This document shows, piece by piece, positions 1-17,528 of a DNA stretch of 64,000 nt; position 1 is the first letter of the stretch, and each line of letters starts with the position of its first letter. Below the pieces are notes generated by a model. That model had not been told where the DNA came from. It worked only from the letters and a program-made list of their open reading frames with translations, and made no database searches. A program made the position numbers and the translations under genes. Origin of the DNA: Paracoccus sp. R12_2 (GTDB taxonomy: Bacteria; Pseudomonadota; Alphaproteobacteria; Rhodobacterales; Rhodobacteraceae); NCBI RefSeq assembly GCF_017744015.1, contig NZ_JAGHRA010000003.1, positions 124,001 through 188,000 of the forward strand, written 5' to 3'.

Positions 1-875
1 GCCCCGGCCAGCAACCGGGCGAAACGCAGGGCGGCCGGGATGCCGCCAAAGGCATTCACATCGGGCAATTGATACAGGCGGCCCTCGGCGACGGGGGCAA
101 GCGCCTGCCACAGGATGCTGCGCCGCAGGGCGCGGTGCGCCGCGACGGGGATATCGCCGACAACCACCAGCCGCGCCTCGGGCATGGTGGCAAGCCGCTC
201 GATCGGAACCGGCGCCAGAAAGCTGAACCGGGTGCCCTCGGTCCAGGCATTGCGCAGGCCAAGCCGGGCCAGAGTGCTGCCGAACAGGCTGTCAAAGCCA
301 AAGGCCCGCAGATGCCGGGCATCGCCGATATTGACCAGCGCGACAGGCCGATCCGAGAAGCCACGAAGACGCGCGGCCAGATCGTCCAGCTCGGCCTCGG
401 CCCGTGCCGTCGCCTGCCCGCCTGCATCCGGATCGCCGACCGCAGCCGACAGCGCATCAACCGCGGCGAATGCCTTGGGCAGCGGCGCTTCACCGGGAAT
501 ATAGAATGGCAGGTTCAGCACCGGCGCCAGCGACTCCAGACGGTCCTGATAGCGCGTGTAGTAGGGCGAGGTCAGGATCAGGTCGGGGCGGGTCAGTTGC
601 AGCAGTTCGAAATTCGGCGCACCGCGCAGCCCCAGGTCGACGACCTTCGCCGGGACCTTCGGCTGTATCGCATCCTCGCGATAGCGGATCAGTTCGCAGG
701 CCGCGACGGGCATGTGGCCGATCAGGATCGCGGTCTCCAGCATCGCCCAGTCGATCGCCGCAAGCCGCGGCTGCGAGGGCAAGGCCCGCAACGGCGATGC
801 CGCCGCCAGCCACAGGCCGGCGGCGGTCAGGATGGCACGGCGATCAGGCCCGGACTTTGCGGCCCGTCCGGTCAC
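1..875 (-). CDS. FhuD-like siderophore ABC transporter substrate-binding protein, C-terminus cut by window edge
   Basis: About 291 residues are visible and the frame is still open at base 1. The predicted GTG start at 875 overlaps the TGA of the TonB receptor gene by 4 nt (GTGA). The N-terminus has a twin-arginine-like stretch (DRRAILTAAG) and a hydrophobic segment, so export is likely. The body has the class III periplasmic binding protein layout: AAIDWAMLETAILIGH near the start, RPDLILTSPYY, a long central helix, then a second lobe with PVALVNIGDARHLRAFG. The family hands ferric siderophores from the outer-membrane receptor to an inner-membrane ABC permease. The linked TonB receptor supports this role. 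The permease and ATPase genes are not visible and may lie beyond the left edge. Confidence 0.8.
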   Translation of the reverse strand, partial: MTGRAAKSGPDRRAILTAAGLWLAAASPLRALPSQPRLAAIDWAMLETAILIGHMPVAACELIRYREDAIQPKVPAKVVDLGLRGAPNFELLQLTRPDLILTSPYYTRYQDRLESLAPVLNLPFYIPGEAPLPKAFAAVDALSAAVGDPDAGGQATARAEAELDDLAARLRGFSDRPVALVNIGDARHLRAFGFDSLFGSTLARLGLRNAWTEGTRFSFLAPVPIERLATMPEARLVVVGDIPVAAHRALRRSILWQALAPVAEGRLYQLPDVNAFGGIPAALRFARLLAG

Positions 876-2956
876 CACTTGTAAGTGACTTTTGCGCTGA
901 CGGTGCGCCCCTCGCCGTAGGAGCAATATGAAAATCCGCAGGCACTGACATAGACTTCATCGGTGATGTTGGTCAGGTTCAACGACATCTCGACATTGTC
1001 GCGGCTGTAGGCGGCACCCAGATCCACCAGGGTCACGCTGTCCAGTTCGGCCGAGTTGGCCGCATCGATGAAGCGTTCCCCGATGTAGCGAACACCGCCT
1101 CCGACACGCAGGCCATTCGCAAATTCGCGATCAAGCCAGATACTGGCGATATGGTTCGGGGCGTCCGCCAGCTGGTTGCCATTCAGCGGATCGCCCTCAG
1201 GTGCGACCTGCTCGGTCTTGTTGTAGGCGTAGCCGGCGCGCAGCTTCCAGGCATCTGCGATTTCGGCGGTCGCCTCGATCTCAAGGCCGCGCGACTTGAC
1301 CTCACCGATCTGCCGGATGCCGGAGATCCCGCCTTCCAGCACAGACCTGTTCACATTCTTCTGGCGCAGATCATACAGCGACGCGGTGATCAGCCCGTCA
1401 AACGCCGTCGGCTGGTATTTTACCCCAAGCTCCCACTGCTCGCCCTCGGTCGGACGCAAGGCGTTTCCATCAATATCCTGCCCAGCCTGCGGATCGAAGG
1501 ATGTCGAATAGCTGGCATATGGCGTAAGGCCATTGGCCATGACATATCCAAGGCCGATGCGACCGGTTACCTTGTTGTCCTTGTACTCGGACACGGTTCC
1601 GTAACGTTCGCCGGTCTGTTCCACCCAGTCATAGCGCAGGCCAAGGGAACCGCGCCAGTTCCCGTACTCGACCTCGTCCTGGGCATAGATGCCGACCTGA
1701 CGCAGCTTCGAGTCACCCGCATTCGGATCGCCTGGGAACGTGCGCCCACCGGCATAATAGTCTGGATCGCGCCAATTCAGATCGCTGGCGGTGCCAAACT
1801 GGCTGCTTTCATAGGCGTCGTACTGTCGAACATCCACGCCGAACAACAGCTTGTGCAGGGCTTGACCAGTCATGGCCTCGCCCGACAAGCGGGTGTCGAG
1901 GCTGATCGTTTCGCTGTCTTCTTCTTGGCGACTGGAGCCCCGGCTGAACGTGTCCGCCCCGGTGACCGCAATGGCGTAGGTACTGCGATAGTCCCAGTCC
2001 AACTTCTCATAGCGGAACCCTTGACTAAGCCTCCAGCCATTGTCGAACTCGTGGCTCAGTTCAAGGCTGAAGCTGGACGATGTTCGGTCGCTGTCGTCCC
2101 AATCCTTCTGACCCGTGTACAGGTCGCGCAGGTAATCGCCATCCGCGCTTTGTGTCAGTGCGAAAGGCACTCCGGTCGGGGACAGGGGCGAATCCTTGGT
2201 GTAGTTCGCCATGATGTCGATGGTCGTCGCGGCATCGGGCGACCACCGGACCGCACCTGCCAGATAGCCGCGCTTGTTGGTCAGGTCATCGATCTGCGTG
2301 TTGTCGTCGCGGCCGATCCCGGTAAGCCGCCAGGATAGCGTTTCGGACGGCGCACGATTGACATCGAAGAACAACTGCCTGCTTTGGTTGCTGTCATAGC
2401 CGACACCGGCTTCACCGAAATCATAGGCTTGGGCACGCTTCTGCACCTGATTGATCACACCTAGCGGAGAACCTGCTCCGTAAAGCGAGGATGACGGCCC
2501 GCGCAGTACCTCGATCTGCTGCATGCCGTAGAGTTCTTGGCCAATCGCGCCGAAATATCGTCCCTGGCGCAGTCCGTTCACATACTGGGCGTTGTCGGCC
2601 CGGAAGCCGCGGATATAGGGCGTGTCGAACCGCGGATCTATTCCGAACGGCTGCGCGTGGACACCCGCCGTATAACCCAATGCCTGACCCAGATTCTCTG
2701 CACCCTGATCCTTGACCTGATCCGTCGTGACAACGGACACGGATTGCTGCATCTCGGCTATCGGCGTGTCTGATTTGGTAGCCGCCTGAGAGTATTCACT
2801 GACATACCCCTCGGGCTGGACGCTGACATCCGTCGTCGCGGTCAGCGTGATCGCATCCAGAACGATGGGCTGCTGCGCCTCTTGTGCAAAGGCGGATGCC
2901 GACAGGGCGAGAACGCTTGCGCTGGCAAGCCATGTGATTCTGAATGCGGTTTTCAT
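872..2956 (-). CDS. TonB-dependent siderophore receptor (FhuA/FoxA type)
   Basis: The protein has 694 residues. A signal peptide ends near AFA at residue 24. A plug domain covers roughly residues 60-165, with motifs QSVSVVTTDQ, YIRGF and IEVLRGPSSSLYGAGSPLG. A 22-strand barrel follows and ends in the outer-membrane signature VTYKW with a terminal aromatic residue. The family imports ferric siderophores across the outer membrane using TonB energy. Translational overlap with the downstream FhuD-like gene indicates a two-gene uptake unit. The specific ligand cannot be read from the sequence; hydroxamate siderophores are the usual substrates of this branch. Confidence 0.9.
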   Translation of the reverse strand: MKTAFRITWLASASVLALSASAFAQEAQQPIVLDAITLTATTDVSVQPEGYVSEYSQAATKSDTPIAEMQQSVSVVTTDQVKDQGAENLGQALGYTAGVHAQPFGIDPRFDTPYIRGFRADNAQYVNGLRQGRYFGAIGQELYGMQQIEVLRGPSSSLYGAGSPLGVINQVQKRAQAYDFGEAGVGYDSNQSRQLFFDVNRAPSETLSWRLTGIGRDDNTQIDDLTNKRGYLAGAVRWSPDAATTIDIMANYTKDSPLSPTGVPFALTQSADGDYLRDLYTGQKDWDDSDRTSSSFSLELSHEFDNGWRLSQGFRYEKLDWDYRSTYAIAVTGADTFSRGSSRQEEDSETISLDTRLSGEAMTGQALHKLLFGVDVRQYDAYESSQFGTASDLNWRDPDYYAGGRTFPGDPNAGDSKLRQVGIYAQDEVEYGNWRGSLGLRYDWVEQTGERYGTVSEYKDNKVTGRIGLGYVMANGLTPYASYSTSFDPQAGQDIDGNALRPTEGEQWELGVKYQPTAFDGLITASLYDLRQKNVNRSVLEGGISGIRQIGEVKSRGLEIEATAEIADAWKLRAGYAYNKTEQVAPEGDPLNGNQLADAPNHIASIWLDREFANGLRVGGGVRYIGERFIDAANSAELDSVTLVDLGAAYSRDNVEMSLNLTNITDEVYVSACGFSYCSYGEGRTVSAKVTYKW

Positions 2957-3479: not shown

Positions 3480-5555
3480 GTGGCACGTTTTATCTGGTCA
3501 GTTTGTTCAGCGATCGTTTTGCTTGTGGTTGCCATTTCGGCGCCTGTTTCGGCGCGCGCACAGCAAGACGAGACGCAGCGCGCGCATGCCTTGCGTCAGA
3601 TCATCGCGACGATGGATGCAGAGGTCGCGCAGCTTGAAGCCCGTTCGGAACAGGCACAGACCAAGCTGGACGAACTGAACGCGGACATTCCCCAGGCCGA
3701 AACAAGATTGCAGGGCTTGCGGTCCGAGATTGACGATCTGACCGCGCGGCGCGACGAACTGGACGCGCGAATCGGTCAGGCGGACGCGCAGGACGAACAG
3801 CAGCAGCAACTGGACGCCGACATCGCCGAGAAGCAGGCATCGGCCGAGGCGCTGGCAGAAACCCTGTCTGCCCGACAGGCCGAACTGGACGCCTTGCAGC
3901 GCCAGATCGACGACGCCGCGGCGAAGCGTCAGGCATTGCAGTCCGACATGGCCGAGGCCGAGGACATGAAGGCGCAGCGCGACAGTCTTGCGGCAGAACT
4001 GGACCAGCAGCAGCAAGAAGCCGAGACGCTGCAACAGATGATCGCGACGCGGCGCGAGGAGGCCGAGGCGCTGAACGCCCAGGCGACCAGCCTTCGCGCC
4101 GAGATCGAAAAGCTTGGCGCCGAACGCGAAAGCCTGCAGGCCGACATCGACACCGCACGCAGCTCTGCCGAGGCTGAGAAAGCGACGCTCGGCGAACTGA
4201 CCGCGCAGGCCGGGGCAATGCGGACGCAGATCGCAGAACTGACGTCGGAACGTGACGAGGTGACGGCGGCGCAGCAGACCGCGCAAGCCGCCTTGCAGGA
4301 TTTGCAGCAGCAGGCGGACCAGCAACGCGCCGATATTGAGAACCTGACCGCGCGCCGGGACGAGTTGCAGGCCGAAATTTCCGAGGGTGGCGAGATCGCC
4401 GACCAAAAACAGCTTGCTGCCAGTCTGGCGGAAACCATCGCCGCACGCCGTCAGGAATTGACCGATCTGGAAGCCGGAACCGCCAAGCTTGCGGAACTTG
4501 AACAGTCCATCGCCACGCGGCAAGGCGAGATGGACGAACTGACAGGCCAGGCGCAGCAACTGCGCGACGAGGTGGCGTCACTGAGCGAACGCCGCGACAC
4601 GCTGCAATCTCAGACCGAACAGGGCGAGGACGCAGTACAGCAACAGGCCGACGCCGACGCGCTTGCCCAGACGATCGCGGAGCGCCGCGAGGAAATCGCC
4701 CGGCTTGATGCACAAAGCACCGAGCTTCGCGACGGGATCGCAGAGATGACCACGCGGCAGCAGGATCTGGAAAGCAGCGTCGCGCAGCAGACCGAGTTGG
4801 CTGAGAAGCTGCAGGATCAGCAGGCAAGTTCGGCGCGTCTGGATGAGGAACTGGCCGGCCGCCGCGCGGAACTAGCTCAGATGACCGAGCGTGCGCGCGA
4901 GCTTGAAGAGCAACTGGCCCAGATGTCCGAGGAACGTCAGTCACTGCAGTCCGAGACCGAAGCCGCCCAAAGCGCCCGCGCCCAGATGTCCGACAGCATC
5001 GAACAACTGCAGGCTGAACAGGCCGAGGGCGAGGACACACTCGCAGATCTTCGCGCCGAGATCGAAGCGATCACGGAGCAACGCCGGGAACTGTCGCAAG
5101 AGGTCGAAAGCCTGGCGGAGTTGCAGGCCGAGCGCGAACGTGTCGCGCAGGCTGTCAGCGAACAGCAGTCCGCCCGCGATGCACTGGCATCCGAGGCCGA
5201 AAGCCTGCGCGCCGAGATCGCGACCTTGCGTGATCAACGCGAGGCACTGACGGCCACCCAGTCGGAAGCTGCGGAATCTGCCCCTGTCGCGGCGGCGCAG
5301 GCGGCAGACCCGATACAATCGGAAATCCAGCCCGAACCAGCGGCAGCCCCCGCTGCATCCCGACCCCGCGACGCGGCGGATGTTGATGCGGCGCTTGCTT
5401 CGGCGCCGGGGCTTCCGCCCGATGCGGCGCAGCTTTCCCGCCTGCGCATCCTGCTGATCGAAGGCGCATGCGCGCCCGACGCGCTGCGCCAGGTGCAGAA
5501 CCCGATCAACCGGCAGACGCTGCTGGCCCTGATGTCACGCCTGGAGCGTTGCTGA
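3480..5555 (+). CDS. Exported long coiled-coil protein of unknown function
   Basis: The protein has 691 residues and starts at a GTG preceded by AAGGAGA. Residues 1-28 form a signal peptide (hydrophobic IVLLVVAISAP, then VSARAQ). Residues about 30-600 are almost pure heptad coiled coil, rich in Gln, Glu, Ala and Arg. There is an internal repeat: a segment around 301-335 (GEIADQKQLAASLAETIAA) recurs around 380-414 with the same LAxTIAxRRxE core, a period near 79 residues. An Ala/Pro linker (about 600-640) leads to a small C-terminal domain with two Cys, ending LMSRLERC. The TAXI protein gene follows after 33 nt, so the two are probably co-transcribed. A periplasmic structural or scaffold role is inferred; no family is recognised. 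Confidence 0.75.
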   Translation: MARFIWSVCSAIVLLVVAISAPVSARAQQDETQRAHALRQIIATMDAEVAQLEARSEQAQTKLDELNADIPQAETRLQGLRSEIDDLTARRDELDARIGQADAQDEQQQQLDADIAEKQASAEALAETLSARQAELDALQRQIDDAAAKRQALQSDMAEAEDMKAQRDSLAAELDQQQQEAETLQQMIATRREEAEALNAQATSLRAEIEKLGAERESLQADIDTARSSAEAEKATLGELTAQAGAMRTQIAELTSERDEVTAAQQTAQAALQDLQQQADQQRADIENLTARRDELQAEISEGGEIADQKQLAASLAETIAARRQELTDLEAGTAKLAELEQSIATRQGEMDELTGQAQQLRDEVASLSERRDTLQSQTEQGEDAVQQQADADALAQTIAERREEIARLDAQSTELRDGIAEMTTRQQDLESSVAQQTELAEKLQDQQASSARLDEELAGRRAELAQMTERARELEEQLAQMSEERQSLQSETEAAQSARAQMSDSIEQLQAEQAEGEDTLADLRAEIEAITEQRRELSQEVESLAELQAERERVAQAVSEQQSARDALASEAESLRAEIATLRDQREALTATQSEAAESAPVAAAQAADPIQSEIQPEPAAAPAASRPRDAADVDAALASAPGLPPDAAQLSRLRILLIEGACAPDALRQVQNPINRQTLLALMSRLERC

Positions 5556-5588
5556 ATGGCCCCACGTCGTTTCCAAGGAGAGAGTATC

Positions 5589-6632
5589 ATGCGTTTGTCC
5601 AAGATCTTGCGGGGCGCCGCGCTTGTCGCAGGCTTCATCGGGGCGGCGGCCCTGCCCGGCCTAGCGCAGGAACCGCGTATCAACATCATGACCGGCTCGG
5701 CGACGGGCACGTATATTCAGTTCGGTCGCGACATGCAGAACCTGATGGCAGGTTGCGGCCAGCAGATGGGCGTGGTCGAATCGGCCGGTTCCCTCGAGAA
5801 TTTCCTTGCGGTGCGTCAGCGGCGGCACACCCAGTTCGGCATCGTCCAGAACGACGTGCTGGAATACATGCAGACGTTTGCAAGCCAGGATCCTGTCGTC
5901 GCGCGGGCCATTCAGGGCGTCCGCATCGCCTTTCCCCTGTATGAGGAAGAGGTCCATATCCTTGCCAAGAAGGACATCACCAGCCTTGCCGATCTGGCCG
6001 GAAAGCGGGTCGGCGTCGGGGACGAGGACAGCGGGACGTTCCTGACATCGTCCCTGATGCTGTCGCTCAGTGGGATAGAGCCTGCGGAACGTCTGCCGCT
6101 GGGACCGAAGGAAGGGCTGGATGCGCTGAATGCGGACCGCGTCGATGCCTTCATCTATGTCGCAGGCGCGCCCGCTTCGCTGTATTCCGAAGGCAACATC
6201 GACGGCGACCGCTTTCACCTTGTCCCGATCTCGGATGACACGCTGACCAGCGTCTATACGCCCTCGACCCTTCCCGCCAACACCTATCCGTTTCAGACCG
6301 AGCCCGTCGAGCTGGTCGCGGTAAAGGCGGTCTTGATGACCTACGAATACAACATGCGCGGCAACAGCTATCACCGCGATGCCTGTACCGCCGTCTCGGA
6401 CCTGTCGTCCCTGATCCTGACGCAATTGGAACAGTTGAAGGCACGCGGCCATCCGAAATGGCAGGATGTGGATCTTGATGCGATCCCGCCGGGTTGGAGC
6501 ATCGGCGCCTGCGTCAATCGCGGCATCAGTCCAGATTACGTCGCGAACTGCACCGCACCGACGATGAGCGATCCCGAAAGCGACGCGAACGCCGCCTATC
6601 GCCGCAGCATCTGTGCCGTCATGGGGTGCTGA
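5589..6632 (+). CDS. TAXI-family TRAP solute-binding protein (orphan)
   Basis: The protein has 347 residues. The ATG at 5589 is preferred to upstream in-frame starts because AAGGAG lies at 5575-5580. A signal peptide ends near GLAQ. The NIMTGSATGTYIQFGRDM segment is the typical TAXI N-terminus, and the AGKRVGVGDEDSGTF block is the second signature. TAXI proteins normally bind small acids for a fused-permease TRAP transporter, but no TRAP membrane subunit is present here. The C-terminal 50 residues carry three extra cysteines (GACVNRG, ANCTAP, ending VMGC), which is unusual and suggests disulfides. The neighbours are an exported coiled-coil protein and a membrane-anchored ATPase, so it may act in sensing rather than import. 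Confidence 0.85.
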   Translation: MRLSKILRGAALVAGFIGAAALPGLAQEPRINIMTGSATGTYIQFGRDMQNLMAGCGQQMGVVESAGSLENFLAVRQRRHTQFGIVQNDVLEYMQTFASQDPVVARAIQGVRIAFPLYEEEVHILAKKDITSLADLAGKRVGVGDEDSGTFLTSSLMLSLSGIEPAERLPLGPKEGLDALNADRVDAFIYVAGAPASLYSEGNIDGDRFHLVPISDDTLTSVYTPSTLPANTYPFQTEPVELVAVKAVLMTYEYNMRGNSYHRDACTAVSDLSSLILTQLEQLKARGHPKWQDVDLDAIPPGWSIGACVNRGISPDYVANCTAPTMSDPESDANAAYRRSICAVMGC

Positions 6633-8462
6633 TCAACCGTCGGAATCGGGGGCCGCGAACCAGTCGGTCGCGGCCACATCCTCTCCATCGGCGCCGATCG
6701 TGACAAAGCGCCACCGCGCCGGCACATTTTCCAGCAGAACGGCGGAACGATCCGTGATGATCCGCTGTATCCGTGCGACACCCTGATCTGTGACGTCATC
6801 GGATTCGGTTTCGATCGCGAAGGTCGCGGGGCTTTCGCCCTCGGCCGCCCGCCAGTGCAGCTCCAGCTGTCCCGAGGGCAGGATCGCCTGCAGGACCGGG
6901 ACGGGTGCCGATGCCGCAGCCTGCACCACGGGTTGGTCCGACAGACCTTCCAGACGGTCTGTCGCACCCCAGATACCCTCTGCCGTGTCATACCAGCTTC
7001 GCGCCCGGTTCGGATCGGCATTCACGCCTTCGCCGATCTCGAAAGCCTGCCCCAGATAATAGGCCGCGCGCGCACTGCCGTGGATCGCCGCACGTTCATA
7101 CAGCAGCGCCGCATCTTCCGGTTCATCCTGCCCGATGGAAAGGGCCTCTGCCATCAAAGCTGCGGGGTCGGGCATGGACACCATCCGTTCGACCTGTGCG
7201 ACCGGCGGCAGCTCCGGATTCTGGGCGAACTGGGTAAATGCACTGGGCGGCAGGTCGTCCGGGTCCGGACGCAACTGCGCGGGCTGTGTGTCGGTGTCGG
7301 CAATGGTCGTCAGGTCCGGATTGCGTTCACGGATCTGCCACCAATACAGCGCCCCCGCAGCGCCGGCGATCGCCAGCACGAAGGCCGCGCGCGAAAGGCC
7401 CGGCGAAGATGATGCCGATTTTTCCGCCCGTACCGGCTGCGAGGTCAGGACCGGCAGGCTGCGCGTCGTGGACACCGGCTGGTCCCCATCGATCACCGGC
7501 GGCATCTCGTGGCGCGGCACAGTCGATGATGGGGGGGCGGTGGTCGGCGGCGGCGCTGCACGTACAGGCAGTTCCACGACGGGCTGTCCCGGTTCCACCG
7601 AAGGCACGTCCTGCCTGTCGGCCACGCCCGCGCCCGGCCGCGCCTTCAGGCCACGCTCTCGCAGGCAGGTATCGACAAACTCCGCGTCCAGCCTGTCGCG
7701 GCCAGCGGCCTGCGCCTGACGCAGGCATTGCCGGGCCATTTCGTTCATCGCCTCGGGAACGCCGCCGGCCCAATGGTGCAGCACCCTGACACTGCCATGT
7801 TCAAAGGGCGATACACCTGCGTGGCATTCGCAGCCCGCGACGGCAAACCGGTGGTCGATATAGGCCCGTGCCTCGTCCACGCCCAAGGGCGGAAGGTCGA
7901 AATATCCCGAGATCAGCCGATACAATCCACGATGCTGCGGATCTGTCAGTCGGGCACGAAGATACGGCGCACCCGCCATCAGCAACGGCATCGTGTCCGC
8001 GCCACGCCCGCCCGGATCGCTTAGCCCGCGCAGATCCTCAAGGGCGTCGGGACGACACAGATGCGCGTCGTCCACGAACAGGATCGCCGGTCGGCCCTGA
8101 CGGTTCTGATCGCCAAGAAATTCCTGCATGCGCAGCAGGACATCTCCCGCGCCGGCCCCGGGAATTTTCAAGCCGAACGCCGCGGGAACACTGGCAAGCG
8201 GATCACGCAAGGCACCCTTGGTTGCGTCAATCCAGCCCACGGTGAATTCGTTGCGCAGTTCCGCGGCGACGACCCGCATCGACAGCGTCTTGCCGGTGCC
8301 CGTGTCGCCCGTCAGAAGGGTCAGCCGATGGCTGGATTCGGCACCGTGAAACAGCACCCTGACGGCCTGACTGTGCCCGGCCGATGGAAAGAACCAAGCC
8401 GGGTCGTGAACCGCGCGAAACGCGGGACAGGGCTTGCCCGAGGCTGGTCTGTTTTCGATCAT
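6633..8462 (-). CDS. ExeA/GspA-like AAA ATPase fused to a membrane anchor and Sel1-like repeat
   Basis: The protein has 609 residues. The N-terminal AAA domain has Walker A GDTGTGKT (52-59) and Walker B ILFVDDAH (127-134) and resembles the ExeA/GspA ATPase of secretion-associated systems. A Pro-rich linker (about 280-350) leads to one transmembrane helix (about 358-376, ending YWW). Beyond it lie a Sel1-like helical repeat (about 449-494, AAYYLGQAFEIGEGV) and a terminal beta-rich domain (about 525-605) that I do not recognise. The topology implied is a cytoplasmic ATPase with a periplasmic sensor or binding region. It abuts the TAXI gene tail to tail with no gap. In ExeA proteins the periplasmic part binds peptidoglycan; here a Sel1-like module takes that place. 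Confidence 0.8.
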   Translation of the reverse strand: MIENRPASGKPCPAFRAVHDPAWFFPSAGHSQAVRVLFHGAESSHRLTLLTGDTGTGKTLSMRVVAAELRNEFTVGWIDATKGALRDPLASVPAAFGLKIPGAGAGDVLLRMQEFLGDQNRQGRPAILFVDDAHLCRPDALEDLRGLSDPGGRGADTMPLLMAGAPYLRARLTDPQHRGLYRLISGYFDLPPLGVDEARAYIDHRFAVAGCECHAGVSPFEHGSVRVLHHWAGGVPEAMNEMARQCLRQAQAAGRDRLDAEFVDTCLRERGLKARPGAGVADRQDVPSVEPGQPVVELPVRAAPPPTTAPPSSTVPRHEMPPVIDGDQPVSTTRSLPVLTSQPVRAEKSASSSPGLSRAAFVLAIAGAAGALYWWQIRERNPDLTTIADTDTQPAQLRPDPDDLPPSAFTQFAQNPELPPVAQVERMVSMPDPAALMAEALSIGQDEPEDAALLYERAAIHGSARAAYYLGQAFEIGEGVNADPNRARSWYDTAEGIWGATDRLEGLSDQPVVQAAASAPVPVLQAILPSGQLELHWRAAEGESPATFAIETESDDVTDQGVARIQRIITDRSAVLLENVPARWRFVTIGADGEDVAATDWFAAPDSDG

Positions 8463-8888
8463 CGGCCCGGCCGGTCAAGCGTATCGGCAAGCCGCAGACA
8501 GATGGCTGGCGGCGCGACGGGCGGAGCTGCGATCACTGAGCGGGAAATCCTCATCGGCGTTACCATGCCACGGTCAACAGACTACACCCATCACGCTATC
8601 CGCTTCGTCGATGCCGTTCAAGGAAACACGCCGGAAACCGGACCGAGTCGTTTCGATTCGGACAATCCATGGTGCAACCGGACAAGAAACCTGTGGGCGA
8701 TCACCTGCCTCTGATGCCGAACAAGGCTGCTGGTGCAGCGCACTGCCGCAAGTCGCGGCACCGCGGCGGCACCGGACGAGCGTCAAGGTTGCACCCATCA
8801 TCGAAGCCGGTCCATAACCTCGGTATCGAGATATATGCGCGAAGGGCAGACCCGGTTCTGATTCGCGATCCATCCGGAGGGATTTCCC
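8463..8888. other. 426-nt intergenic region before bioY
   Basis: No gene is supported; open frames on both strands have random-looking translations. It separates the minus-strand ATPase from plus-strand bioY and must hold both promoters. A possible bioY promoter is TTGCAC (8789-8794), 18 nt, CATAAC (8813-8818). I do not see the BioR-type palindrome that controls biotin genes in many alphaproteobacteria. Confidence 0.4.
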
Positions 8889-14400: not shown

Positions 14401-15687
14401 ATGCCTAAGGACATGGTTGACATGACCGACATCTTCACTCGACGCGAAAGCGAAGCGCGATCCTATTGCCGCGGCATTCCCGCCGTCTTCACCAAGGCAA
14501 GCGGGTCTGTTCTGACCGGCAATGACGGCACGGAATACATCGACTTTCTGGCCGGCTGTTCCTCGTTGAACTACGGTCACAACGACCCCGACATGAAATC
14601 GGCGCTGGTCGAGCACATCACCGGTGACGGCATCGCCCACGGGCTGGACCTTCACACGACCACCAAGGCCGACTTCCTGAGTGCATTCGACAGTCACATC
14701 CTGACACCGCGCAACATGGACCACCGGGTCATGTTCATGGGGCCGACCGGTGCGAACGCGGTCGAGGCCGCGATGAAGATCGCCCGGAAGAAGACCGGAC
14801 GCACGAATATCGTCGCCTTCACCAACGGCTTCCACGGCGTCACCATGGGCGCGCTTGCGGCGACCGGCAATGGATATCACCGCGGCGGCGCCGGCATGGA
14901 TACGCAAGGCGTGACCCGCATGCCCTATGACGGCTTTGCCGACGGGGTGGACGGCGCGGAACTGCTGGACCTGATGCTGTCGGACGCCTCGGGCGGGATC
15001 GACGCACCGGCTGCGATCATGCTGGAAACCATCCAGGGCGAAGGCGGGCTGAACGCCGCCTCCGGCGACTTCGTGCGCAAGATCGCCGACATCGCCAAGA
15101 AACACGGCGCCCTGCTGATCATCGATGACATTCAGGCCGGTTGCGGACGCTCTGGCACGTTCTTTTCCTTCGAGGAGATGGGCGTGACGCCGGACATCGT
15201 CACCATGGCGAAATCAATCTCGGGCTTTGGCCTGCCCCTGGCCCTGCTGCTGGTGCGTCCCGAACATGACGTGTTCGGCCCGGCGGAACACAACGGCACC
15301 TTCCGTGGCAACACCCATGCCTTCGTGACGGCCCGCGTCGCGATCGAGAAATTCTGGGCCGATGACGCGTTCCAGAAGGAACTGGCCAACAAGGCCAAGC
15401 TGATCGAACGTCGCCTGACCGAGTTGGCGGGTCTGATCCCCGGCGCCTATCTGAAGGGCCGCGGCCTGATGCGGGGCGTCGACGTCGGGTCCGGCGAGTT
15501 GGCCGAAAAGATCTGCGGCCGCGCCTATGACAAGGGTCTGATCATCGAGACCTCGGGCAGCGAGGACGAGGTGGTCAAGGTTCTGGCACCACTGACAACA
15601 CCGGTCGAGACCTTCGAGAAGGGCTTCGACATCCTGATGGATGCGGCCCGCGAAGTTCTTGCAACCACCAATATCGCTGCGGAGTAA
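14401..15687 (+). CDS. ectB: Diaminobutyrate-2-oxoglutarate aminotransferase
   Basis: The protein has 428 residues, a class III PLP-dependent aminotransferase. [55 protein letters not shown] and the PLP lysine in [15 protein letters not shown] are present. It makes L-2,4-diaminobutyrate from aspartate semialdehyde with glutamate as amino donor. The upstream AAAGGAAAA supports the ATG at 14401. An internal ATG at 14422 (MTDIFTRR) is where many homologues begin and has AAGGA 10 nt upstream, so the true start is ambiguous. Confidence 0.95.
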
Positions 15688-15692
15688 CAGAC

Positions 15693-16085
15693 ATGATCGT
15701 TCGTGATTTCAACAAACTGAAAGACACCGACCGGTCGGTGTCGGATGCGAAATGGAATTCGGTGCGGATGCTGCTGGCCGATGATGGAATGGGCTTTTCG
15801 TTCCACATCACCACGCTGCAGGCCGGGTCGGAACATACCTTCCACTACAAGCATCACTTCGAAAGCGTTTATTGCATGTCCGGACGCGGCTCGATCACCG
15901 ATCTGGCCACCGGCCAGACCCACGAGATCAAGCCGGGTGTGATGTACGCACTGAACCTGAATGACAAGCACACGCTGCGGGCCGAAGAAGAACTGGTCAT
16001 GGCCTGCTGCTTCAACCCGCCCGTGACCGGCAACGAAGTCCACCGCGAAGACGGCTCTTATGCCCCGGTGGAAGAAACGGCGTAA
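15693..16085 (+). CDS. ectC: L-ectoine synthase
   Basis: The protein has 130 residues, a cupin. [16 protein letters not shown] is the standard EctC N-terminus. The cupin metal-binding region is visible in [19 protein letters not shown] and the second motif in [18 protein letters not shown]. It cyclises N-gamma-acetyl-diaminobutyrate to ectoine. It starts 5 nt after ectB. No ectD follows, so 5-hydroxyectoine is not made from this locus. Confidence 0.96.
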
Positions 16086-16088
16086 GAC

Positions 16089-17528
16089 ATGGCAGACACC
16101 CAGAAACATCATACGGTCGAGAAGATCGGCGGCACGACGATGTCGCGGGTGGACGAACTGCGTGACACGCTGCTGATCGGCGATCGTGAGGGCAGCGACC
16201 TGTATAACCGGATCTTCGTCGTATCGGCGTTCGGTGGCATCACCAATTTGCTGCTGGAACACAAGAAATCCGGGGAAGCGGGCGTTTATGCCGCCTTCGC
16301 AAATTCTGACGGCGACCATTCCTGGCATCAGGCGCTGGACCGTGTCGAGGCCGAGATGATCGCGGCGCACAAGGCGGTGCTGGATCATCCGGGCGACATC
16401 GAACGCGCCGATGCGTTTGTCCGCGACCGCCTGCTTGGCGCACGCAACTGCCTGATCGACCTTCAGCGCCTGTGTTCCTATGGCCATTTCCGTCTGTCAG
16501 AGCACATGCTGCAAACGCGTGAACTGTTGTCCGGGCTGGGCGAGGCGCATTCAGCCTTCGTCACATCGCTGATGCTTCAGCGTGCCGGCGTGAATGCCCG
16601 ATTCGTCGATCTGTCGGGCTGGCGCGACGAGGGCGACGTGACCCTGGACCAGCGGATCGAAGGCGCCATGTCGGGCGTCGATCCCGCGACCGAGATGCCT
16701 ATCGTCACCGGATATGCGCAATGTGCCGAAGGTCTGATGCGTGAATTCGACCGCGGCTATTCCGAGGTGACGTTCTCGCGTCTGGCCGCCCTGACCGGCG
16801 CGCGCGAGGCGATCATCCACAAGGAATTCCATCTCAGCTCGGCGGATCCGAACCTGGTCGGTCAGGATGCGGTGCGCAAGCTGGGTCGCACGAACTATGA
16901 CGTGGCCGACCAGTTGTCGAATCTGGGGATGGAGGCGATCCACCCGAAAGCCGCCAAGACCCTGCGTCAATCGGGCGTTCCGCTGCGCGTGACCAACGCA
17001 TTCGAACCCCACGATCCGGGCACGTTGATCGACGACCAGCCGGCCGAGAGCCCGGCCGTCGAAATCGTCACCGGGCTGGAACTGTTCGCGCTGGAAGTGT
17101 TCGAACAGGACATGGTGGGCGTGAAAGGCTACGACGCGACGATCATCGACATCCTGACGCGTCACGATGTACGCATCGTGTCGAAGGTGTCGAACGCCAA
17201 TACGATCACGCACTATGTCGACAGCAGCCTGAAAGTGCTTCGCCGGGTCGAGAAGGATCTGCAGGCGAAATACCCGTCTGCCGTCATCACCTCGCGCTCG
17301 ATCGCGATGGTGGCCGCTGTTGGGCGCGATCTGGACACGCTGGCCGTTCTCAGCCGTGGCCTCAACGCTCTGGCCGAGAACGGGCTGGAGGCGATCGGCG
17401 CCACGCAGGGCCCTCGCCCGGTCGATGTCCAGTTCATCGTCGAACGCGAGATCATGAAGCCGGCGATCAAGGCGCTGCATCGCGCGCTGGTCGAATCCGA
17501 CGCGCGGACGGTGCAGAAAGCCGCCTGA
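16089..17528 (+). CDS. ask: Ectoine-type aspartate kinase (Ask_Ect)
   Basis: The protein has 479 residues. The kinase domain opens with HTVEKIGGTTMSR, carrying the conserved KxGGT lysine, and contains VVSAFGGITNLLL. Two ACT-like regions follow near the C-terminus (VGVKGYDATIIDILTRHDVR and a second after VITSRSIAMVAAVG). It begins 3 nt after ectC. Operon-borne aspartate kinases of this class are thought to escape normal amino-acid feedback and supply aspartyl phosphate for ectoine. It is the last gene before a strong terminator. Confidence 0.93.
   Translation: MADTQKHHTVEKIGGTTMSRVDELRDTLLIGDREGSDLYNRIFVVSAFGGITNLLLEHKKSGEAGVYAAFANSDGDHSWHQALDRVEAEMIAAHKAVLDHPGDIERADAFVRDRLLGARNCLIDLQRLCSYGHFRLSEHMLQTRELLSGLGEAHSAFVTSLMLQRAGVNARFVDLSGWRDEGDVTLDQRIEGAMSGVDPATEMPIVTGYAQCAEGLMREFDRGYSEVTFSRLAALTGAREAIIHKEFHLSSADPNLVGQDAVRKLGRTNYDVADQLSNLGMEAIHPKAAKTLRQSGVPLRVTNAFEPHDPGTLIDDQPAESPAVEIVTGLELFALEVFEQDMVGVKGYDATIIDILTRHDVRIVSKVSNANTITHYVDSSLKVLRRVEKDLQAKYPSAVITSRSIAMVAAVGRDLDTLAVLSRGLNALAENGLEAIGATQGPRPVDVQFIVEREIMKPAIKALHRALVESDARTVQKAA

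Follow-up and report, generated by a model that had tools for sequence, protein, structure and literature searches.

The locus and its three genes

We analysed a stretch of 64,000 nucleotides from Paracoccus sp. R12_2 (the window; G000:C33:124001-188000, within a 4.07-Mb genome) and describe here three adjacent genes at its positions 3480 to 8462, which encode an exported coiled-coil protein (CC), an orphan TAXI solute-binding protein and a membrane-anchored AAA protein (the ATPase). The trio can be regarded with high confidence as a real, conserved gene unit, and it appears to be an envelope machine that has so far not been described. The three open reading frames (ORFs) lie where an earlier reading of the sequence alone (the original prediction) had placed them, and the locus comprises the following features.

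3480..5555, plus strand: CC, an exported coiled-coil protein of 691 amino acids, first gene of the trio; its Pfam and NCBIfam matches are generic coiled-coil matches
5367..5552, plus strand: CC C-terminal domain, about 62 amino acids, with two invariant cysteines and an NRQ-L motif; directly 5' of the TAXI gene
5589..6632, plus strand: orphan TAXI solute-binding protein, 347 amino acids, with a signal-like N-terminus, six conserved cysteines and an HPKW...PGW C-terminal motif
6630..6635, no strand: TGATCA palindrome in which the convergent TAXI and ATPase genes both have their stop codons
6633..8462, minus strand: gene for the AAA protein (AAA, transmembrane helix, Sel1, fibronectin type III (FN3)), 609 amino acids
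7653..8381, minus strand: cytoplasmic AAA domain, residues 28-270, in which the motifs Walker A (GDTGTGKT) and Walker B (ILFVDD) are both intact
7323..7391, minus strand: single predicted transmembrane helix, residues 358-380, from a model helix (predicted local distance difference test score, pLDDT, below 50 there) and hydrophobic sequence
6939..7166, minus strand: Sel1-like repeats, residues 433-508, predicted periplasmic, from Pfam Sel1 and structure matches
6657..6902, minus strand: FN3-like beta domain, residues 521-602, from structure matches of the predicted model

The CC reading frame starts with GTG at position 3480 and ends at 5555. The N-terminus of its 691-residue product is hydrophobic and, as read from the sequence, signal-like, in agreement with the proposed export. 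Residues 30-600 include one proline and consist to 89% of E, Q, A, K, R, L, S, D and T, while the mature part has two cysteines, both within its last 30 residues. Two cysteines and the NRQ-L motif of the C-terminal domain were found in 12 of 12 rows of alignment A4. No convincing PDB relative of this domain was found by sequence (best E 0.04) and, unlike the recognisable domains of the trio, it appears to match no known family that we saw. The internal period of 79 residues that had been proposed for CC was not significant: compared with shuffles of 7-residue blocks, lag 79 (z 3.2) fell below the 95% bound of 3.7 (best of 250 lags), and lags 35, 14, 59 and 45 were stronger.

The TAXI gene most likely starts at the ATG at 5589, the best start, which is preceded by AAGGAGAG and lies 33 bp after the CC stop codon. 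The TAXI and ATPase genes meet tail to tail with zero gap, as first noted, both stop codons lying inside TGATCA at 6630-6635. Counting the window, the ATPase is adjacent at 16 Paracoccus loci, and at 13 of these the gap is zero.

The orphan TAXI protein

The TAXI protein matched the NCBIfam model TRAP_TAXI (TIGR02122) with 126.1 bits (cut-off 84.35), the match being confined to positions 6-264 of the 320 in the model. In place of the usual C-terminal fifth, the protein has the HPKW...PGW segment and cysteines. The extra cysteines seen originally proved to be conserved, since C56, C266, C308, C321, C342 and C347 are kept in all 10 trio-clade rows other than that of genome G146; this genome has the first four, and the set is kept in none of the three more distant rows of alignment A1.

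Three fused TRAP permeases scored above the model cut-off in this genome, each with its own adjacent TAXI gene. The window TAXI is the fourth TAXI match of the genome, and it has no TRAP permease nearby, as the original prediction had stated. There is neither a fused DctQM permease beside it at the locus nor, among the genes scanned, a GltS symporter beside or fused to it, the direct neighbours being CC and the ATPase. TRAP uptake via a local permease was rejected, because no permease is present at the locus or within 1.5 kb of the TAXI gene at any of 39 loci of the TAXI clade described below.

In VcGluP of Vibrio cholerae (structure 8S4J), the Y45A and Q93A substitutions lowered the glutamate affinity 213- and 990-fold (PMC11574862). 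With residue numbers transferred manually from the alignment to 8s4j_A, VcGluP residues Y45, S75, Q93, E125, G156, Y200 and G203 corresponded to Y42, S68, Q87, E120, G149, Y190 and G193 of the window TAXI; G146 aside, each of the 10 trio-clade rows retains all seven.

The three genes were also compared by the ratio of non-synonymous to synonymous substitution rates (dN/dS) between the window and the loci L054, L055 and L057. The respective values were 0.25, 0.45 and 0.46 for CC, 0.05, 0.18 and 0.21 for TAXI, and 0.28, 0.33 and 0.57 for the ATPase, i.e. below 1 for all three genes in the three comparisons and lowest for TAXI.

The membrane-anchored AAA protein

The ATPase matched Pfam AAA_22 with 53.8 bits (cut-off 27), and all 15 Paracoccus rows share its Walker A Lys58 and Walker B Asp131. 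Its best NCBIfam match was TIGR03015 (XrtA/PEP-CTERM ATPase); this assignment was rejected at 122.4 bits against a cut-off of 324.5, with no search for an exosortase made, and the match ends at residue 268, ahead of the transmembrane helix and the periplasmic part.

A model of the full protein (mean pLDDT 70.3) comprises a cytoplasmic AAA part, a disordered linker holding the transmembrane helix, and a compact end. The one helix that had been expected was placed at residues 358-380, where the model is of low confidence. A Foldseek search with the full protein gave only AAA-type proteins among the best 50 of 1443 matches, with ORC2, RuvB and TnsC near the top, and the periplasmic part was therefore modelled alone (pLDDT 91.3, predicted template modelling score 0.88). 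The Sel1 part of this model aligned with 6onw_A (Z 14.0, root-mean-square deviation (rmsd) 1.0, 78 residues aligned). Pfam Sel1 scored 23.0 bits in the scan of window proteins, below its cut-off of 30.7, and matched 15 of 15 ATPase rows at E <= 0.5 (best 4.1e-9; window 2.8e-6, 28.1 bits, cut-off 30.7), so that the proposed Sel1-like repeat stands. The end of the protein had been called beta-rich and unrecognised; it is beta-rich, but an FN3-like fold can be recognised in it, with FN3-type matches at Z 9-9.8 (8fn9_H: Z 9.7, rmsd 2.8, 91 residues aligned), Foldseek E values of 5e-4 to 5e-3, and no Pfam FN3 match. On the predicted model, the end of the ATPase would thus consist of about two Sel1 repeats followed by an FN3-like fold. 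No peptidoglycan-binding Pfam family was matched in the window ATPase at E <= 1.

The ATPase also carries Cys12 (8427-8429) and a CxCH motif at residues 211-214 (7821-7832). All 15 Paracoccus rows share Cys12, Cys211 and Cys213, and 14 of them have His214 and Cys246; Cys12, Cys211 and Cys213 are absent, as read, from the corresponding proteins of three other Rhodobacteraceae genomes (G048, G106 and G035). This distribution suggests a lineage-specific site, which may bind metal or be redox-active.

Conservation of the trio in Rhodobacteraceae and Paracoccus

Among 149 genomes of the family, 10 matched the window TAXI at E <= 1e-20, one of them being the genome of the window itself; in six of the others, the TAXI protein is 56-62% identical to that of the window. 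In the nine other genomes, for which 7-20 kb around the TAXI gene was taken, the CC C-terminal domain is encoded directly upstream of TAXI at seven loci, and a convergent ATPase gene with the same periplasmic part was found at three of these seven CC-TAXI loci outside Paracoccus (G048, G106 and G035). The two weakest TAXI matches (G120 and G116) have neither the CC domain nor the ATPase at the locus, and G023, the sole other Paracoccus genome in the family draw, has no TAXI match. Near the TAXI locus in three other genera (L043, L044 and L048), there are genes that read as LivJ/LivH-type ABC transporters, which are common in this bacterial group.

A contig scan yielded 19 loci, 16 of them from Paracoccus, the closest among the named ones being that of Paracoccus maritimus (TAXI identity 98%). 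The CC domain is upstream in 16 of these 16 Paracoccus loci and the ATPase adjacent in 15, being truncated by the contig end in L064 and lacking nearby in L060. The adjacency of the three genes is hence not confined to one genome, as the neighbourhood check of the original prediction had asked, since it recurs in other Paracoccus strains and in G048, G106 and G035. The trio is retained while the outer flanks differ among most loci, common flanks being seen mainly in the pairs window/L054, L062/L063 and L059/L069. Upstream of the trio and divergent from it lies a TonB-dependent receptor gene (window 872-2956), whose cluster comprises only the window and L054 among the loci compared; beyond the trio, the genes scanned were this TonB receptor, BioY and MOSC.

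A survey of 121 Paracoccus genomes gave TAXI matches in 33 of them (E <= 1e-60) and matches to the CC domain in 35 (E <= 0.001). The CC domain is encoded directly upstream of TAXI and on the same strand in all 33 TAXI-bearing genomes, and 31 of the 33 have an ATPase match that extends beyond model position 500, i.e. into the periplasmic part. In 28 of these 31, the ATPase gene is adjacent and convergent, and in G458, G544 and G468 it is at another place or on a different contig. Of the 88 genomes in which TAXI had no match, only G538 has an ATPase match into the periplasmic part (in G447 the match is cut by a contig end at position 317). At this G538 locus (G538:C41:65602-67672), the ATPase and CC genes converge, their matched parts being separated by about 120 bp, and there is no TAXI match; G477 is the second Paracoccus genome with CC but no TAXI, on a weak match (E 6.7e-4). 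The best 10 ATPase, up to 17 TAXI and up to 46 CC candidates were scored per genome and, as these are only the best few, absences are not proof. The co-occurrence counts were tallied by hand and are uncorrected for kinship among the genomes, and profiles A2, A3 and A4 include Paracoccus sequences that recur in the survey.

Fusions and recurrence in a distant family

In G146 (L049), an ORF of 1279 amino acids beside TAXI combines an AAA domain (PF13401, 41.1 bits), a transmembrane helix (as read), a coiled coil and the CC C-terminal domain (E 6e-15), which means that a single protein can contain both the ATPase and the coiled coil. Because the coiled coil lies beyond the transmembrane helix in this fusion and is exported elsewhere, the arrangement supports a periplasmic location of the C-terminal part of the ATPase. 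A second trio was found in G600 (L145, family f155), in which genes for a coiled-coil protein, TAXI and an AAA-transmembrane-SPOR protein are consecutive in one direction. The coiled-coil protein of G600 (744 amino acids) has Sel1 repeats (Pfam Sel1, 99.3 bits), a coiled coil and a Sel1-like end, and its ATPase ends in a SPOR domain (26.8 bits, cut-off 21). Co-occurrence, conserved adjacency, the L049 fusion and the L145 trio together support the view that the ATPase, TAXI and the coiled coil are functionally linked.

The wider permease-free TAXI clade

Profile A1 matched 11 of 289 genomes of the class (E <= 1e-45), and profile A6, made from diverse members, matched 18 of 385 genomes of the class and 17 of 299 genomes of the phylum (E <= 1e-55), including three weak matches outside the class (E 1.7e-67 to 8e-57). 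In a quick tree with several long-branched rows, 54 clade rows were split from 30 ordinary TAXI rows by a branch with SH-aLRT support of 100, part of the split being due to the choice of rows, as the ordinary ones were the best TRAP_TAXI scorers. Thirteen Rhodobacteraceae trio-clade rows and G219 formed a group of 14 (support 99).

Next to many TAXI genes of the clade, a protein is encoded that ends in a Sel1-like domain, which often follows a transmembrane helix, a coiled coil or both; at the two loci of G424, the neighbour is an AAA-transmembrane-Sel1 protein. A Sel1-like profile made from nine C-termini matched 33 of 4351 ORFs from 69 loci, and 32 of the 33 lie within 200 bp of TAXI or overlap it. 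These 32 include the nine seeds and six window-type ATPases, and the overlaps stem from over-long starts.

Equal flanks of 1.5 kb were compared between 39 clade loci (window included) and 30 ordinary TAXI loci, with a permease profile made from three permeases. A companion, i.e. a Sel1-like, CC-domain or AAA protein, was present at 24 of the 39 clade loci and at none of the 30 ordinary loci, while a TRAP permease was present at 0 and 23, respectively. The absence of a permease, predicted for the window, therefore extends to the TAXI clade elsewhere. Seven of the 39 loci had supplied Sel1-like seeds, and without these and the window, 17 of 31 have a companion; three of the 39 (L136-L138) are from outside the class and weakly matched. 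In wider stretches of 65 loci (3.6-21 kb, many at the same places), a permease match was seen in three: that of G120 (L050), a fused TRAP permease 6.5 kb from TAXI, and weaker ones 5.8 kb from TAXI in L058 and about 4 kb from it in L151.

Several other arrangements were observed in the clade. In L160 (6025-8403; genome G823) and L157 (7049-9505; G838), a permease-free TAXI is fused behind a LivJ-type periplasmic binding protein (PF13458, 170 bits in L160; as read in L157), and the fusion reads as a tandem receptor of two binding-protein folds. Near TAXI in L092, L094, L151, L155, L163 and L167, there is a gene for a small secreted-looking protein with the end QEQGW or QERGW followed by S/T-Y, which we take to resemble DsrE-like proteins; the L151 copy had no Pfam match at E <= 0.01. 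Directly downstream of TAXI in L163 (6661-7275), a VasI-like protein is encoded (PF11319, 22.5 bits, cut-off 26.5, E 1e-4).

Comparison with known systems

TAXI-TRAP systems, such as VcGluP (PDB 8S4J) and those represented by the Thermus structures 1us4/1us5, share with the window protein the solute-binding family and the ligand-binding Tyr, Ser, Gln and Glu. They were always found with a fused DctQM permease, according to a review (PMC5812351), whereas the clade of the window has no TRAP permease at the locus or within 1.5 kb (39 loci), is well separated from the 30 ordinary TAXI proteins in the quick tree, and in the window protein has a different C-terminal fifth, with HPKW...PGW and six cysteines. 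The nearest published parallel is TAXI-GltS of Bordetella pertussis, in which TAXI works with a symporter (PMC12344293). In both cases, TAXI has departed from TRAP and has a genetic link to a membrane protein of another kind; however, the partner in Bordetella is a Na+/glutamate symporter, whereas those in the window are AAA, Sel1 and coiled-coil envelope proteins without an adjacent transporter.

ExeA/GspA of type II secretion (PMC4098917) resembles the window ATPase in its AAA_22-type domain, single transmembrane helix and periplasmic C-terminal part. The periplasmic part of the window protein is Sel1 plus FN3-like instead of peptidoglycan-binding, and the G600 relative has SPOR. The likeness to the XrtA/PEP-CTERM ATPase (TIGR03015) is one of the AAA domain, far below the cut-off and ending ahead of the helix. 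The Sel1-repeat proteins 6onw, LpnE (6deh) and AlgK (3e4b) have a repeat fold like the helical periplasmic part, although the window ATPase has about two repeats, fused to AAA and a transmembrane helix. Within the open-access library searched, we found no description of TAXI associated with a Sel1, AAA ATPase or ExeA-type partner. Any novelty would lie in the system as a whole, as the recognisable domains belong to known families.

Possible function of the trio

The explanation that we favour, and that we consider evenly balanced between true and false, is that the trio forms a trans-envelope, ligand-responsive protein complex. It draws on the conservation of the unit, the fusible parts, the lack of a permease next door, the intact ATPase motif and the retained main ligand residues, all of which were observed. 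TAXI would be a periplasmic Venus-flytrap receptor without a TRAP permease of its own, and its ligand is probably small and of the amino-acid type. CC would be a periplasmic rod ending in the small two-cysteine domain. Upon closing on its ligand, TAXI would dock on the periplasmic Sel1/FN3 part of the AAA protein, or on CC, and this docking would be coupled through the single transmembrane helix to an assembly of the cytoplasmic AAA domains that depends on nucleotide, unless the coupling runs the other way. The output may be an inward signal or the control of envelope assembly. The physical complex, its topology, the direction of coupling, the ligand and the output are what we infer, and for the mechanism leading from receptor to ATPase we see about equal chances of its being right or wrong. 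Whether the ATPase responds to TAXI or the two assemble something is likewise a matter of what we infer from the locus.

Several observations weigh against this explanation. At the pocket, VcGluP Y46, H123, D157 and M201 correspond to I43, Y118, T150 and V191 of the window TAXI (they are lesser ligand positions than Tyr45 and Gln93), and S40 is variable. The pocket Tyr is lost in G146, L071 and L091, the Gln in L072 and L093, and both in L092 and L094. The dN/dS of CC and the ATPase climbs to 0.33-0.57 in the wider comparisons. An ATPase with the periplasmic part was not found in two TAXI-bearing Paracoccus genomes (G523, AAA-only match; G500, none at E <= 1e-25) and no adjacent ATPase was found in L045, L047 and L048, while the partner protein of L070 has a degenerate P-loop. 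As 88 of the 121 Paracoccus genomes have no TAXI match, the module is not essential to the genus. Across the clade, an ATPase match within 1.5 kb was present at 4 of 39 loci (window included), and a Sel1-like partner, at 22 of 39, is commoner. No companion was detected within 1.5 kb at 15 of 39; of these, L086 (itself a seed) and L166 show one in longer sequence, L157 and L160 encode the LivJ-type fusions described above, and L087 has a divergent neighbour with a Pfam Sel1 match below the cut-off. Given this variety of Sel1-like, CC and AAA partners, the ATPase is one partner form and not universal, so that the originally proposed three-gene system is supported in part. Finally, G120 (L050) encodes TAXI at 7942-8811 and, 6.5 kb away on the opposite strand, a fused TRAP permease (15340-17001), possibly as a transitional case.

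The main rival is an envelope scaffold without sensing, in which the AAA protein would drive a structure linked to peptidoglycan or to the outer membrane to assemble or to take up its position, CC would be its periplasmic rod, and TAXI a structural adaptor with an incidental pocket. The SPOR domain of the G600 ATPase and the loss of pocket residues in part of the TAXI clade fit such a scaffold, and Sel1 and FN3 folds are commonly protein-interaction modules. On the other hand, all 10 trio-clade rows apart from G146 have Tyr42, Ser68, Gln87 and Glu120, and among the three proteins the constraint is strongest on TAXI (dN/dS 0.05-0.21), which is unexpected for a passive adaptor. We regard the scaffold as rather unlikely, though worth serious attention.

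Ordinary uptake in trans, in which TAXI would feed a TRAP permease or another carrier encoded elsewhere and its neighbours would be unrelated envelope genes, is improbable. The TAXI fold and the main pocket residues are kept, G120 has its fused permease 6.5 kb from TAXI, and the GltS partner shows that TAXI can have a non-TRAP partner (PMC12344293). However, the three fused TRAP permeases of the genome each adjoin their own TAXI, the window protein covers only part of the TRAP_TAXI model (6-264 of 320), and the linkage of TAXI to CC and the ATPase is conserved.

Two further explanations have very little in their favour. A factor for secretin assembly of the GspA/ExeA type, accompanied by two accessory proteins, would fit the AAA_22 domain, single helix and periplasmic part of the ATPase, ExeA being required with ExeB for secretin assembly (PMC4098917). 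It is disfavoured because no secretin was detected: PF00263 had no match at E <= 0.001 in the 99.99% complete genome, while a control search was positive in 6 of 14 genomes. Together with the lack of a peptidoglycan-binding Pfam domain in the window ATPase at E <= 1, this leaves the ExeA/secretin analogy of the original prediction weak here, and such a role is highly improbable. Equally hard to credit is a neighbourhood that arose by chance or hitchhiking, or else a defence island, for which the patchy presence (33 of 121 Paracoccus genomes) and partial PADLOC matches of CC could be cited, since the trio is kept while the outer flanks vary at most loci, the G146 fusion and the G600 recurrence speak for a unit, and CC and TAXI look exported. 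An anti-phage defence system was rejected, as PADLOC gave no specific match for TAXI or the window ATPase and the partial CC matches, to SMC-like models, are seemingly generic coiled-coil matches.

Beyond the trio itself, we tentatively propose, as a somewhat doubtful generalisation, a new class of envelope machine in which a TRAP-derived periplasmic amino-acid receptor would, with no permease involved, drive a membrane-spanning AAA+ ATPase via Sel1/FN3 and coiled-coil parts, so that an external solute would set ATP-dependent assembly, the permease-free TAXI clade of Alphaproteobacteria being the receptor half. If the complex exists, it would join a known kind of receptor to a known kind of ATPase, a pairing that we did not find described in the open-access library searched. 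Solute-binding proteins without an evident transporter occur in many bacteria, and their role is a standing puzzle. Here, genomic neighbourhood, co-occurrence and common modules link a whole TAXI clade without an adjacent permease to membrane-anchored proteins of the Sel1, coiled-coil and AAA types.

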